Shown here one piece after another: positions 542-20,766 of a stretch of DNA of 64,000 nt. Position numbers and translations under genes: made by a program. Source of the stretch: Dermabacter hominis NBRC 106157 (GTDB lineage Bacteria > Actinomycetota > Actinomycetes > Actinomycetales > Dermabacteraceae); NCBI RefSeq assembly GCF_001570785.1, contig NZ_BCSI01000004.1, positions 1-64,000 of the forward strand, written 5' to 3'. How positions within the stretch are numbered: the first letter of the stretch is position 1; each line of letters begins with the position of its first letter. The notes below the pieces were generated by a model. It was not told where the DNA came from and did not search any database. It was given only the letters and a program-made list of their open reading frames with translations.

Positions 542-610
542 CAAACCCCCACAACCCCTATGCAATCCGAGGAGGGCGGCATCAAACCCCCACAACCCCT
601 ATGGAATTCA
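542..610. repeat. Two tandem-like copies of a C-rich intergenic repeat
   Basis: A 21-bp core beginning caaacccccacaacccctat occurs at 542-562 and again at 583-603, a 41-bp spacing. The second copy is embedded in a 30-bp unit (581-610) that is identical to 19858-19887 and includes the pdxY stop codon (complement of tca at 608-610). On the minus strand the core is G-rich, with a four-G run and a five-G run. It has no obvious hairpin. It is visible here as an exact repeat; its function is unknown. Confidence 0.85.
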
Positions 611-1462
611 GTGAGGGAGGGGGTGGGCCTTGAATTTCGTGTCCGGATTGACGAAAGCCTCCTGGCATTCAACGATGAGAAGCTCGCGCGCCTTCGCCTC
701 GATCGTGCGGTCGATGAGCTCGAACACCGAAGCGGCCGTCTTCTCGAGTGCTTCGACAGGGCCGGCGCCACCGAGCAAATGCGCAGCGAAGAGAGCCGTC
801 GTCACATCGCCGCTGCCATGAACCTTCCGCTCAAGGCGGGGGGTTGCGAGAAGATACGCGCCCGACGAATCAGCGACGAGGAGCTCGAGCATGCCGTCGG
901 CGGTGTCTTTCGTGATCACGCTCGTCACCAGCACGGTCTCGGCACCCTCGGCACGCAGCTGCTCGACCGCTTGAAGCGTGCCCTCGAGCGTGGACACATC
1001 GGTCCCCGTGAGTACGCCAAGCTCGAAGTGATTGGGCGTGAGTACCTCGGCGGCAGGAACGACTTTGTTCGCCATGAGCGGCGGAATATCGGCATCGACG
1101 TAGAATCCCTCGCCGGCATTGCCCATGACCGGGTCGGCGATATACACGGCGTTCGGGTTATGAGCCTTCACGCGTTCCACGGCGTCGAGAATCACGTCGG
1201 TTACAGCCGCGGATCCCTGGTATCCGCTCAAGATAGCGTCGGCTTCGCCAAGAATGCCGAGCTCTTCGATTCCCAAAACAACCTCGTGAACGTCCTTCGC
1301 ATCGATGACGGGACCGCGGAACGTCGGGTGGCCCGTGTGGTTTGAGAAAAGGACGGTGTTGACGGGCCATACTTCGTGGCCGAGCCGCTGCAGCGGAAAA
1401 ACAGCGGCAGAATTACCCGCGTGTCCGTAGGCCACGGCGGACTGGATCGTCAAAATCTTCAT
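608..1462 (-). CDS. pdxY: Pyridoxal kinase PdxY
   Basis: This 284-residue protein is a ribokinase-superfamily kinase that phosphorylates pyridoxal with ATP in the vitamin B6 salvage pathway in the cytosol. The N-terminus MKILTIQSAVAYGHAGNSA is diagnostic of PdxY/PdxK, with the substrate-contacting GHAGNSA at residues 13-19. The C-terminal catalytic GSGD motif places the likely base at Asp219. The start at 1462 is chosen because AAGGAG precedes it at good spacing and the family begins here; the frame continues 33 residues further upstream without homology. It lies 41 nt downstream of tdk on the same strand and could be co-transcribed. Its stop codon lies inside the C-rich repeat. Confidence 0.93.
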   Translation of the reverse strand: MKILTIQSAVAYGHAGNSAAVFPLQRLGHEVWPVNTVLFSNHTGHPTFRGPVIDAKDVHEVVLGIEELGILGEADAILSGYQGSAAVTDVILDAVERVKAHNPNAVYIADPVMGNAGEGFYVDADIPPLMANKVVPAAEVLTPNHFELGVLTGTDVSTLEGTLQAVEQLRAEGAETVLVTSVITKDTADGMLELLVADSSGAYLLATPRLERKVHGSGDVTTALFAAHLLGGAGPVEALEKTAASVFELIDRTIEAKARELLIVECQEAFVNPDTKFKAHPLPH

Positions 1463-9539: not shown

Positions 9540-11894
9540 ATGAACGGGTGTGGTGTGAGGCCCGTGAGGGGGCTGAGCCTCATTCCACACGCCGCTGTGC
9601 TCTGGCCGGCAACCATTGCGAGTGTGTCTCTCGGTCCTGTCGTAATTCTCGCCGTCGTCATCCCGGCGCTTCTCCTGGCCTTAGTGCGAGAGAAACGTTT
9701 GCGGGCACATGCGCTGCTTGCCGTTGTTCTTGGTGCAGCAGTCGCAGGGCCGGTTGCCCGCGTGCACAACGATCACTTGAGTCTCGATGAGGCTCTTCGC
9801 GAAAGAAACGTTGTGAGCGAGGTCGTGGTGACGCTTCGCGAGTCACCGTCACAGCCCGCGCGAGGTGCCGCGTGGGATACGACGGTTGCACGTGCATCGA
9901 GCCAGCCCGAACTCTCGAAGATCACGGTCGGTGCAGGAGACAAAGCGATTTCGAGGCAGACACGAATCGTGCTCACCTGGTCGAAACACACGCGTGGGGG
10001 CGATCCCTTCTCGCTTGGACGTGGGGACATGCTTCGGGCGCGGGGGTATGCCGATAAGGACGGCTCCACGCTCTTTCTTGAGATTGCCGAATGGGAGCAG
10101 GTGCCGCCACGACCTGCTGAGGATGAGGGGGTGATTGCCGCCGTAGGGCGTGTCCTTGACTCCTGGCGAGAAGAGCGAAAAGAGGTTGTACGGCTAGCCT
10201 CCTCGTTTTTGCCTGCCAATGAAGCATCGCTCGTCGTGGGCATGACCCTCGGAGACGCGGCGGGCCTTGCCAGAGAGGTGAAGGACGATATGGCGACCTC
10301 CGGGCTCACGCATCTCGTTGCTGCCTCGGGTGCAAATATTGCTTTGACCTATGCTTTTGTCACGCTGCCGCTGCTTGCCGTGGGCGTGCGCCGCAAAGCG
10401 CGGGTTCTGGCGGCGGCTGCGGGGATCGCCGTGTACGTGGCTGCGGTGGGCCCGGAGCCCAGCTTGCTGCGAGCCGCACTCATGGCCGTTCCTCTCATGA
10501 TTGGACGCTACGCAGGTTTTCGCACGCCGCCTCTCAACGCGCTTGCGCTCACCGTTCTCGCCTGGTGCCTCATGGATCCGGCGCTCGTGGGAGAGGTGGG
10601 CTTCGTGCTCAGCGTGGGCGCGACGGCGGCTATTCTCGCGCTCTCGGTTCCGCTTGCTGAGGTTATCCGGCAGGTCAGTCGCGAGAGAATTTCTCGCAAT
10701 CTCGCGCTTGTGGTTTCCGTTCCGACGGTTGCCCAGGCAGCATGCACGCCGGTCTTGCTCCTGCTTGCTCCCGAAACGTCAGTGTGGGCTGTGCCGGCGA
10801 ATATTGCCGCGGAACTCGTCGTGGCGCCCGCAACCGTGAGCGGTTTTGTCGGCATTATTGTCGCGCATGTGTGGGCGCCGCTCGGGGTACCATTCTTCGC
10901 CCTTGCGGGGGCAGGTGCGCACGTTCTCGTGCTCATTGCACAGGTGAGTGCCGCACTTCCGGGAGCGCACATTGCGTTGCCGGCCGGCGCGGGAGGTGCA
11001 CTGTCCACGGCAGGGGTACTCATCGTCGTAGGGCTCACGCTTTGGCTGCGCACGCGCCGCGAGGTGCGCTGGGCGCTCGCATTCCTCGTAGTGATCGCCC
11101 TCTTCGGGGGAGTCTCCACGCTGATTCCCGGGGACGTCGAAGACTGGGATGTCGTGATGTGCGATGTTGGGCAGGGCGATGCAATGCTCGTGCGTGCCGG
11201 GGGAAAAACCGTACTCATCGATACGGGACCAGACCCGAACATGCTCGCCCGATGTTTGGACCGTGCGGGAGTCGGAGCGATCGACCTCCTCGTCGTGACC
11301 CACCCTCACGCTGATCATGACGGCGGAATACCGGCGTTGACGGGAGAGCGTACGCCGCGGCGGGCGTGGGTGTGCCCGCTCGATACCACGACGAAAGCGA
11401 AGCTCCCTCGAACTGAAGTGGACACCGTGCTCGCGCCCCGCGCGGAAACCGTCGGAGGTGTTTCTCTCACGGTGCTGTGGCCGCGTTCAGCCGAGGAAGC
11501 GAGAGCCCTCGGGGCAGGCGAGGGCGGGGGTGAGGAGTCGGCGCTCAATGACTGTTCGATTTCGATGCGCGTGGAAGCACCGGAATGGAGCGCACTTACG
11601 CTAGGGGATCTAGAGCCGGATGCGCAAGCCAGGCTTGCGCACTCGGGGGCGGTGAAACCTGTTGAAGTGGTCAAGGTTGCGCATCACGGCTCCCGCCGGC
11701 AGGCACCGGAGCTTTACGAGGCAGCTCACGCCCCGCTTGCCATCGTTGGCGTTGGTGAGAACTCATTCGGACACCCGCACCCTAAGACGCTCGCGATGTT
11801 TGAGCGACAAGGAACAGTGCTTAGACGTACCGACGAGGAGGGGATGCTGGTGTTGACGAGAACGGACGCGGGCTGGACGGTGCGCACGAAATGA
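9540..11894 (+). CDS. comEC: ComEC/Rec2-type DNA uptake channel
   Basis: This protein of about 784 residues has many hydrophobic segments, a central Competence domain containing the conserved GLTHLVAASGANIAL stretch, and a C-terminal metallo-beta-lactamase-like domain with HPHADHDGG at about 588-596, DVGQGDAMLV and VAHHGSRR. ComEC forms the membrane channel for single-stranded DNA, and the C-terminal domain is thought to degrade the non-transported strand. The frame is open upstream through comEA, but the ATG at 9540 lies just after the comEA stop and is the sensible start. No type IV pilus genes are in the window, so competence itself is not shown. Confidence 0.92.
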   Translation: MNGCGVRPVRGLSLIPHAAVLWPATIASVSLGPVVILAVVIPALLLALVREKRLRAHALLAVVLGAAVAGPVARVHNDHLSLDEALRERNVVSEVVVTLRESPSQPARGAAWDTTVARASSQPELSKITVGAGDKAISRQTRIVLTWSKHTRGGDPFSLGRGDMLRARGYADKDGSTLFLEIAEWEQVPPRPAEDEGVIAAVGRVLDSWREERKEVVRLASSFLPANEASLVVGMTLGDAAGLAREVKDDMATSGLTHLVAASGANIALTYAFVTLPLLAVGVRRKARVLAAAAGIAVYVAAVGPEPSLLRAALMAVPLMIGRYAGFRTPPLNALALTVLAWCLMDPALVGEVGFVLSVGATAAILALSVPLAEVIRQVSRERISRNLALVVSVPTVAQAACTPVLLLLAPETSVWAVPANIAAELVVAPATVSGFVGIIVAHVWAPLGVPFFALAGAGAHVLVLIAQVSAALPGAHIALPAGAGGALSTAGVLIVVGLTLWLRTRREVRWALAFLVVIALFGGVSTLIPGDVEDWDVVMCDVGQGDAMLVRAGGKTVLIDTGPDPNMLARCLDRAGVGAIDLLVVTHPHADHDGGIPALTGERTPRRAWVCPLDTTTKAKLPRTEVDTVLAPRAETVGGVSLTVLWPRSAEEARALGAGEGGGEESALNDCSISMRVEAPEWSALTLGDLEPDAQARLAHSGAVKPVEVVKVAHHGSRRQAPELYEAAHAPLAIVGVGENSFGHPHPKTLAMFERQGTVLRRTDEEGMLVLTRTDAGWTVRTK

Positions 11895-17894: not shown

Positions 17895-18668
17895 ATGAAC
17901 GTCGAACCGCTTTCGGTCGCGATTGCCCAGGGCCCCGCGCGCGTGCTCTCGACGTGCACGGTGGACTCGCTCTTCCACGTCGAGGAGACGGGCATTCGCT
18001 CGGGAATCAGCAAAGTTCCGCGAGAAGAAGGCATCAAGCTGCTCACGCACGGCGTGCTCGGCGACGTGCAGGGCGATACCGAACACCACGGAGGCCTTTT
18101 CAAGGCCGTATACGCCTTTGCGCGCGAAACGCGGGAGGAACTTGCGCGCCGGGAAGGTTTGAGCGGATTGCCCGACGGTGCCTTCGGCGAAAATCTCGTC
18201 ACGGAGGGTATCGATACCGACGAGGTCATCATTGGCTCGCGCTGGCGCATCGGCGGGGCAGAGCTTGAGGCAAGCGTGCCGCGCCAGCCCTGCAAGACTT
18301 TCGCCGTGTGGATGGGGCGCTTCGCCAAGCAGGCGGGAATTGAGCCCCAAGGGCCATGGGGCCGCCGCTTCAATGCCTACGGAAAGTCGGGGGCGTACTT
18401 CCGCGTTGTACGCGAGGGCGTTGTGCGCCCGGGTGACGAAATCGAAGTGCTTTCGGTTCCCGAGCACGGCGTAAGCATAGGCGAGATCTTCCGCGGTCTC
18501 TCGAGCGAGATCGATCCGGCGAGCGCCAAGGCGCTCCTGAGCTGGGCGCGAGACACGGAAACGCCCGTGTACACGTCGATGGCGAGGGGATGCCTCGCGG
18601 CGCTTCAAAGCGCCAATATCGCGTTCGAGTTCCCCGCCTCGCTCATCACCGATGGCCGGGGAAACTAG
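17895..18668 (+). CDS. MOSC domain protein (YiiM-like)
   Basis: This 257-residue protein is a MOSC-domain member: GVLGDVQGDTEHHGG near the N-terminus, GAFGENLVTEGI, and the invariant cysteine in VPRQPCKTF with a helical C-terminal YiiM-type extension. MOSC proteins bind molybdenum cofactor or carry sulfur; YiiM-like members reduce N-hydroxylated compounds. The ATG follows AAGGGGA just after lepA. hemW overlaps its end by 17 nt. Confidence 0.85.
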   Translation: MNVEPLSVAIAQGPARVLSTCTVDSLFHVEETGIRSGISKVPREEGIKLLTHGVLGDVQGDTEHHGGLFKAVYAFARETREELARREGLSGLPDGAFGENLVTEGIDTDEVIIGSRWRIGGAELEASVPRQPCKTFAVWMGRFAKQAGIEPQGPWGRRFNAYGKSGAYFRVVREGVVRPGDEIEVLSVPEHGVSIGEIFRGLSSEIDPASAKALLSWARDTETPVYTSMARGCLAALQSANIAFEFPASLITDGRGN

Positions 18669-19839
18669 CGCGAACGACCGAGGACTCTCGGTTTACATTC
18701 ACGTGCCGTTTTGCGCGGTGCGTTGTGGGTATTGCGACTTCAACACCTACACCGCAAAAGAGCTTGGCGGGGGAGGTTCGCAAGCTGAGTATCCGGATAA
18801 CGCGATGCGCGAAATGGAGCGCACGCTCGCGGACGATCAAGCGTCGGGCTTCACTTACGACCGCGTTGACACCGTGTTCTTCGGAGGAGGTACCCCCACC
18901 CTCCTGCCCGCCGAGGAACAGGCGCGCATGCTCGCCCACCTCGACTCGCTTATTCCTCTCGCCCCGGGCGCCGAGGTGACAACCGAGGCGAACCCCGACT
19001 CCGTCACCCGAGACTCCCTCTTCCGCCTCGCCGATGCTGGGTTTACGCGCGTGAGCTTCGGCATGCAATCGGCCGTGCCGCGTGTGCTCGCGATCCTCGA
19101 CCGTACCCACAACCCCGAATCCGTCCCGAGGGCTGTCGCGTGGGCCCGGGAGGCGGGCCTTCAGGTGAGCCTCGACATGATTTATGGGACGCCGGGGGAG
19201 ACGCTCACGGACGTCGAGACCACCATCGGGGCGATAACCGAGATGCAGCCGGATCACGTGAGCGCCTACTCGCTCATCGTCGAGGGCAACACCAAAATGG
19301 CTCGCCAGCTGCGCCGCGGCGAACTCAGCGAGCCCGATCCGGACTTCATGGCCGATGCCTACGAGCTCATCGCCGACCGCACGCGAGCCGCGGGCTTCGA
19401 GTGGTATGAGGTCTCGAACTTCGCGCGCGGCGACGAGTTTCAGTGCCGCCACAACCTCGCCTACTGGCGGGGCCGCGACTGGTGGGGGATCGGCCCCGGC
19501 GCGCATCGACACCGCGACGGCTACCGCTCGTGGAACCTCAAGCACCCCTCACGCTATGCCGCGGCCCTCGCCGCCGGGCGTTTGCCCGTTGACGGGTTCG
19601 AGAACGTTTCGCTGGAGGATCGCGCGCTCGAGCGCCTCATGCTCGAGATGCGTATAAGGGAGGGTTTCGAGGCGGCGAGCAACCCGCTTACTTCACGTAG
19701 CGAGGCACGCGAGGTGCTCGTGCAGCACGTGGCAGAGGGGCGGTTGGATGCGAGTGCATGGGATAGCGGGATCGTGAGGCTTTCCGACGCCGGCCGGCTT
19801 GTCGCCGATGCCATTACGCGCGATATCGCAGCGCTCTAA
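18652..19839 (+). CDS. hemW: HemW-like radical SAM heme chaperone
   Basis: This 395-residue radical SAM protein has the HemW cluster signature HVPFCAVRCGYCDF (Cys21, Cys25, Cys28), the FFGGGTPTLLP glycine motif, and SFGMQSAVPRVLAILDRTH. HemW binds heme and helps insert it into membrane enzymes; it lacks the extra cysteine typical of true coproporphyrinogen dehydrogenase HemN. Annotations often call it oxygen-independent coproporphyrinogen III oxidase. It overlaps the MOSC gene, and the next gene on the other strand ends 45 nt away. Confidence 0.9.
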   Translation: MAGETSANDRGLSVYIHVPFCAVRCGYCDFNTYTAKELGGGGSQAEYPDNAMREMERTLADDQASGFTYDRVDTVFFGGGTPTLLPAEEQARMLAHLDSLIPLAPGAEVTTEANPDSVTRDSLFRLADAGFTRVSFGMQSAVPRVLAILDRTHNPESVPRAVAWAREAGLQVSLDMIYGTPGETLTDVETTIGAITEMQPDHVSAYSLIVEGNTKMARQLRRGELSEPDPDFMADAYELIADRTRAAGFEWYEVSNFARGDEFQCRHNLAYWRGRDWWGIGPGAHRHRDGYRSWNLKHPSRYAAALAAGRLPVDGFENVSLEDRALERLMLEMRIREGFEAASNPLTSRSEAREVLVQHVAEGRLDASAWDSGIVRLSDAGRLVADAITRDIAAL

Positions 19840-19857: not shown

Positions 19858-19887
19858 ATCAAACCCCCACAACCCCTATGGAATTCA
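19858..19887. repeat. Third copy of the C-rich intergenic repeat
   Basis: This is a 30-bp exact match to 581-610, about 19 kb away, again overlapping the stop codon of a minus-strand gene (DUF3097, stop at 19885-19887). It fills most of the gap between the convergent hemW and DUF3097 genes. Confidence 0.85.
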
Positions 19888-20766
19888 GGGATTGGCGGTG
19901 ACGAAGTCGATCAGTTCCTCGATACGGCCGCTAAGGGTTGGCTCGACATCCGCGTACGAGCGCACCCGCCCGAGAATCTTCTGCCAGCCTTCGGCGATGT
20001 CCCCTTGCGACTCGGCGGGAAGTCCGAGCGCTCTGAGCGAGCCGACTTTGATGTCCGTTCCCTTGGGGATGTGGGGCCACTTCTCGAGCCCTACGCGCGC
20101 GGGTTTCACGGCTTGCCACACATCGACGTATGGGTGACCGAGGATGAGAACGTGCTCTCGCATCCCCGGCTCGCGCATGACGCTCTCGGCGATGCGGGTT
20201 TCCTTGGATCCCGCAACGAGGTGGTCCACGAGAACGCCGAGCTTGCGGTCCGGCCCCGGCCGGAAAGCCCGAACGCGCTCGAGAAGGTTATCGGCGCCAT
20301 CGAGCATTTCGACAGCTACGCCTTCGATGCGCAGGTCGTGCCCCCACACCTTCTCCACGAGTTCGGCGTCGTGCTTGCCTTCGACCCAAATCCGGGAGCC
20401 ACGCGCGACGCGGGCACGGGCTCCTTCGACATAGGTTGAGCCCGACGCGCTTCGTTTAGGGCCCGACGTTTGCCGAGCAGCCGTCGGACCGCCGCTCGTG
20501 GGCGGGGTCAAGCGAACGGGCCTTCCATCGATCAGAAAACCAGGGCCGAGGCGGAACGTGCGTAGGCGCCCGTGACGATCCTCGAGTTCGACGATGTGGA
20601 TACCGCCCGACTTCTCCACGCGCGTGACGGCGCCGACCCAGCCGGTTTGGACATCCTCGACAACGAGCCCGCGCTCGGCTGGGACATCCCTGCTCGCGGG
20701 GCGTTTCGGGTGAAAGGCATCCCCGGTACCGGAAAGGACGTCGTGGCCGTATCGATCGATATTCAC
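19885..20766 (-). CDS. DUF3097 family protein
   Basis: This 293-residue protein matches the actinobacterial DUF3097 family in its N-terminal MNIDRYGHDVLSG and PAERGLVVEDVQTGWVGAV segments and its central SRIWVEGKHDAELVEKVWGHDLR segment, which looks like a Toprim-type acidic motif. LGVLVDHLVAGSKE and HVLILGHPYVDVWQAVKP follow. A nucleic-acid role is suggested by the Toprim resemblance only. The start is GTG. It is divergent from hrcA. Confidence 0.8.
   Translation of the reverse strand: MNIDRYGHDVLSGTGDAFHPKRPASRDVPAERGLVVEDVQTGWVGAVTRVEKSGGIHIVELEDRHGRLRTFRLGPGFLIDGRPVRLTPPTSGGPTAARQTSGPKRSASGSTYVEGARARVARGSRIWVEGKHDAELVEKVWGHDLRIEGVAVEMLDGADNLLERVRAFRPGPDRKLGVLVDHLVAGSKETRIAESVMREPGMREHVLILGHPYVDVWQAVKPARVGLEKWPHIPKGTDIKVGSLRALGLPAESQGDIAEGWQKILGRVRSYADVEPTLSGRIEELIDFVTANP

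Follow-up and report, generated by a model that had tools for sequence, protein, structure and literature searches.

The window analysed here is a 64-kb stretch on contig C4 of a 2.155-Mb Dermabacter genome (G000), and it carries two minus-strand genes whose ends coincide with a repeat. The 30-mer ATCAAACCCCCACAACCCCTATGGAATTCA is found in identical form at positions 581-610 and 19858-19887, and its 21-mer core has exactly three occurrences in the window, the third at 542-562; the initial annotation had described these identities, and we recovered them in the sequence. The core did not occur in any of 100 dinucleotide shuffles of the window, even with up to three mismatches allowed. As had also been described, both 30-mers include the stop codon of a minus-strand gene: the TGA at 608-610 ends a pdxY-like kinase gene (608..1462; ORF, gene call and Pfam PF08543), and the TGA at 19885-19887 ends a DUF3097 gene (19885..20766; ORF and Pfam PF11296/PF22845).

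The pdxY-like gene is followed by two units in tandem. The first (584..611, minus strand; sense strand CTGAATTCCATAGGGGTTGTGGGGGTTT; weight-matrix score of 50 bits) carries the pdxY stop codon, and the C/U-rich tract ahead of it on the transcript (612..628, minus strand, identified from the sequence) is made of the last pdxY codons. The second, downstream unit (543..570, minus strand; sense strand TCGGATTGCATAGGGGTTGTGGGGGTTT; 49 bits, exact core) is the copy at 542-562, which is a complete unit ending in CAATCC and lies 41 bp from the next one. The unit after the DUF3097 gene (19861..19888, minus strand; 50 bits) carries the stop codon of that gene, and lies 21 bp from a convergent neighbour (18652..19839, plus strand; ORF) for which the weight-matrix scan gave no unit of its own. 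Orthologous units at equal offset were found in two related genomes, G001 and G003, for both 584..611 and 19861..19888; the unit at 543..570 is also present in G003, and is missing from G001.

Anatomy, lineage range and inheritance of the unit

The unit is asymmetric and about 26 bp long, with the sense strand TRATTSCATAGRGGTTGTGGGGGTTW, the G-rich strand being the sense one; the weight-matrix consensus on the transcript strand, derived from copies within 1.48 Mb of sequence from three genomes, is YTRATTSCATAGRGGTTGTGGGGGTTW. Units are generally preceded by a C-rich (C/U-rich) tract of about 15 nt. Scanning the 1.48 Mb identified 125 units, and none in the reversed control; this sample consists of stretches chosen mostly around known copies, and its statistics describe the copies rather than a random portion of the genomes, neighbouring copies and three related genomes being non-independent observations. 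Scores were nearly all-or-none: 108 of the 125 units reached at least 38 bits, and five fell below 32. With regard to the quadruplex-prone strand suggested initially, each unit has only two G-runs. No single unit has an internal palindrome, stems arising only through inverted pairs or downstream partners. The spacing of tandem units is most often 41-44 bp, approximately the length of the tract plus the unit; among 15 inverted pairs, 9 have an offset of exactly 40 bp. The unit had no match in Rfam, and our literature search returned neither its sequence in a relevant context nor any description of the repeat.

The unit family is peculiar to the Dermabacter lineage. Allowing up to three mismatches, we found 43 copies in G000, 46 in G001 and 38 in G003 (median protein identity among the three, 91-93%), and none in the reversed control. 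At the same threshold there were no copies in the congener G002 (75-77% protein identity in the two genes compared) or in 43 other Dermabacteraceae, nor were there any, with up to one mismatch, in 22 other Micrococcales. Among contigs from one genome per species, a set that may omit the window genome and those very near to it, the exact pattern returned a sole record, “Helcobacillus massiliensis genome assembly Dermabacter indicis”. A phage origin was rejected, as the exact pattern had no match in viral contigs.

Across the three unit-bearing genomes, the unit is kept in all three at 18 of the 21 three-species ortholog groups, mostly at nearly equal distance. In 58 ortholog pairs, units are 94% identical, with 68% identity in the upstream UTR, 75% and then 69% downstream, and 85% in nearby coding sequence; 3’ UTRs elsewhere are 75% identical. 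Orthologous units differ at 1.5 positions per unit, against 3.0 both for paralogs within a genome and for non-orthologs between genomes. Since orthologs are closer to each other than paralogs, there is no homogenisation or concerted evolution, and gene conversion was rejected. Judging from these comparisons, the units are inherited vertically under purifying sequence constraint. Chance was excluded by the shuffles, the empty reversed control and the copy number. The initial annotation had raised the possibilities that only the window copies exist, that their position is not conserved in relatives, or that the matches trace to an artefact. The search of the genome and its relatives gave a different picture, with about 43 copies in the genome, conserved positions, and three separate assemblies in agreement, one of them a single contig, which excludes an assembly artefact.

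Placement at gene ends and folding

The unit occupies the terminator slot of coding and non-coding transcription units, oriented with transcription. Sixty units are in sense orientation with respect to a called gene and fall between -13 and +20 nt of its 3’ end. This count is a lower bound, since the genes were called by a codon-score script of simple design, which overlooks certain real genes (e.g. galE in L133); the earlier suggestion of a dispersed element or 3’-UTR site at gene ends was thus borne out. Often the unit itself contributes the stop codon, either as an edge TGA (offset -4) or as an internal TAG (offset -13), and the exact junction seen at the two window genes was correctly judged not to be due to chance, given that stop codons occupy fixed positions within the unit. 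Five units lie 6-10 nt past tRNA-Gly(TCC) or tRNA-Gly(CCC) genes, so that the placement rule is independent of translation. Every cluster is inward-facing, with G-sense units before C-sense units, and at convergent genes two units stand face to face. The units are extragenic: just one of the 125 is inside a called gene, and that gene is low-scoring. In function the hosts form a mixed set (6-phosphogluconate dehydrogenase, phosphoglycerate mutase-like, clpB, leuS, polA, phosphoketolase, cytochrome b, DUF3117 and others), and therefore the family is not the regulon of one pathway.

As an exception to this placement, an enolase-like gene has one unit overlapping its start codon. Another unit lies directly upstream of a CIRCE-type element before groES, and its orientation in G003 is opposite to that in G000 and G001 (L131:9975-10002, L114:9019-9089, L156:9747-9774). 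Two minus-strand genes flank a further unit, found in G001 and G000 (L119:9645-9672 and L136:9831-9858), that is directed at no known gene end; the unit and the approximately 95 bp shown around it are identical in the two genomes, a strong U-tailed hairpin adjoins it, and the site is possibly an unrecognised RNA gene.

The content between facing units can vary. Between the convergent units of copC and an MT0933-like antitoxin gene we observed galE and a transporter gene, galE, or no gene, depending on the species (L133:8167-11919, L158:9764-11674, L116:9541-9747). A lipoprotein gene module with inverted units at both edges is found at two G001 loci in opposite orientation, along with a diverged third copy (L121:7671-12312, L124:8640-10855, L118:8612-10867). 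Cassette insertion at unit pairs was considered for the galE, transporter and lipoprotein genes that lie between convergent units in some species, and was rejected: convergent gene ends may be nothing other than safe places for insertion.

Regarding folding, the initial annotation had reported no hairpin. This holds for the two window sites, which lack a strong terminator hairpin, but not for the family, in which many inverted pairs form 26-bp stems. At convergent genes, for example gnd and the gene next to it, the inverted units share a palindrome with a stem of that length, and other sites have GUGGGGGUU/CCCCCAC hairpins, some of them followed by U-rich DNA. A GC-rich stem-loop is strong at many unit sites and weak at a sizeable minority, including 584 and 19861 in the window. 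Inverted mates differ by 2.8 mismatches versus 2.4 for random pairs, and paired arms do not covary. Inverted mates being no more complementary than random ones, it is the unit sequence itself that is kept, and not pairing alone; unit positions beyond the short stem are conserved to the same degree.

Hairpins followed by a T-tract within 110 nt were found at 16% of unit-bearing ends versus 17% of ends elsewhere. The units are thus not simple substitutes for U-tailed terminators, and the idea that they replaced them was rejected. Pairing of the C/U tract with the G-runs into a local hairpin was also discarded: its stability exceeds that obtained with random gene ends but not that obtained when the tract itself is shuffled, which indicates that only C-richness matters. 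Relatives without the unit frequently carry hairpins of the ordinary type at the corresponding gene ends: G002 has strong ones after gpm (-35 kcal/mol) and DUF3117 (-25 kcal/mol), and other genera have them after gnd (G007 and G005) and a purM-like gene (G007). These hairpins are not universal, clpB and leuS converging without a gap in G002.

Candidate functions and comparison with known systems

Bacterial terminators normally consist of a stem and a U-tract, or depend on Rho, and have no fixed sequence. We favour, with somewhat better than even confidence, the explanation that the approximately 40 copies are lineage-specific, cis-acting elements for transcription 3’ ends and insulation that are read by sequence, through a presumed effect on termination and a putative reading factor. 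The element would consist of the C/U-rich tract of about 15 nt and then the asymmetric unit of about 26 bp, placed at or just past the stop codon or the tRNA 3’ end. The unit would end transcription and insulate the neighbouring transcription unit, and its sequence would be read by a factor acting either as a DNA-bound polar roadblock or as an RNA-bound termination or 3’-end factor. A hairpin with GUGGGGGUU as its 5’ arm would assist at many sites, and the face-to-face units of convergent genes would share one palindrome. Several points speak against this explanation: U-tailed terminators are as frequent after units as elsewhere, some units (those at the groES CIRCE promoter and the enolase-like start) are directed at no known gene end, and a sequence so long and nearly fixed exceeds what a terminator should need. 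An oriented, near-invariant sequence at about 30 gene ends, where relatives lacking the unit often have hairpins, suggests that a sequence-read mode of transcript ending can become established in a lineage, and the 125 natural variants together with the relatives lacking the unit make the idea directly testable.

The best surviving alternative, which we consider unlikely, is a REP- or MITE-like family: a transposase that has since disappeared or goes unrecognised would have spread it in an ancestor, with insertion or survival favoured in 3’ intergenic space, and part of it would have been co-opted afterwards. The family is lineage-restricted and dispersed, it forms inverted and tandem clusters, and its copy number differs between species; moreover, the inversion of the groES unit in G003, the unit at the enolase-like start and the duplicated lipoprotein module bounded by units keep a REP-like mobile origin as a rival. 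However, almost no decayed copies exist, the sense orientation is strict, the distances are fixed, and the unit is more conserved than coding DNA. Our search for the REP-associated Y1 transposase (PF01797) was negative in all nine genomes examined, including the three unit-bearing ones, while control genomes were positive; we therefore rejected mobility of the RAYT/IS200 type. The mobile element targeting gene ends that was initially proposed also fits poorly with positions and distances conserved between species, with orthologs closer than paralogs and with the negative Y1/RAYT transposase search.

A 3’-UTR element in the RNA, recognised by a protein, by Rho or by a small RNA and acting on mRNA stability or processing rather than termination, would account for the fixed sense orientation in 3’ UTRs and for the C-rich tract ahead of the unit. 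We hold it to be quite unlikely: tRNA genes carry units too, which makes a purely mRNA-level role less likely, the host functions are mixed, and no further locus in the genome lies within three mismatches of the unit, which argues against a long complementary trans RNA. Improbable, and the weakest of the alternatives, are ordinary intrinsic, partly U-less hairpin terminators that inherited a common 5’ arm from duplicated copies: many units pair strongly with a downstream partner or an inverted unit, and mycobacteria are described as having U-less terminators close to stop codons (PMC12288462), but folding is weak at both window sites and at others, mates do not covary, and conservation is equal outside the short stem.

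Several known systems resemble the unit in part. REP sequences and REPINs are short, dispersed, extragenic and lineage-specific, and often occur as inverted doublets that form hairpins (PMC3116915). The Dermabacter unit is likewise repetitive, extragenic, dispersed and lineage-specific, and often found in inverted pairs with hairpins; unlike them, it is not palindromic and is fixed in orientation to the upstream gene, no Y1/RAYT transposase was found for it, and its single copies, rather than being defunct, are conserved from species to species. The DNA uptake sequences of Neisseria are also genus-specific repeats whose inverted pairs at gene ends form terminator hairpins (PMC2397512), and the unit shares with them the genus specificity and the inverted pairs at gene ends. 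However, uptake sequences are 10-12 bp long and occur once per 1-1.5 kb, whereas the unit is 26 bp long with about 40 copies, far from such density; it is essentially absent from coding sequence, and its single copies are oriented by the gene.

An independent 13-mer, TCCGACGSTTGCC, does resemble a DNA uptake sequence. Its exact copies number 105, 125 and 162 in the genomes that bear units, against 0-1 in the other relatives; those in the window are at 10721 (+), 27560 (-), 28187 (+) and 58104 (+). Allowing one mismatch, 295 copies were found in the 1.48 Mb, two thirds of them inside genes, versus six in the reversed control, and 14 neighbouring pairs are inverted and hairpin-capable. ComEC is present, yet relatives that lack the 13-mer have it as well.

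Mycobacteria have U-less (I-shaped) intrinsic terminators, located no more than 50 bp from the stop codon and in many cases lacking a U-tract (reviewed in PMC12288462). They are, like the unit, actinobacterial and close to the stop codon; they are, however, stems without a fixed sequence, while the unit is a fixed asymmetric sequence, kept even without a strong stem.

We know of no general bacterial system for ending transcription of the protein-roadblock kind. Roadblock terminators of rDNA (Reb1/TTF-I) and the polar Tus-Ter system use long asymmetric sites that act in one direction. By analogy, a dedicated sequence-specific factor might bind the Dermabacter sites and stop RNA polymerase one-way at about 30 transcription units, including tRNA genes, having evolved within one actinobacterial genus with a logic like that of eukaryotic rDNA terminators; in this specific form we regard the proposal as doubtful. 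If the roadblock reading is right, the unit would share with Reb1/TTF-I and Tus-Ter the long, asymmetric, one-way site.
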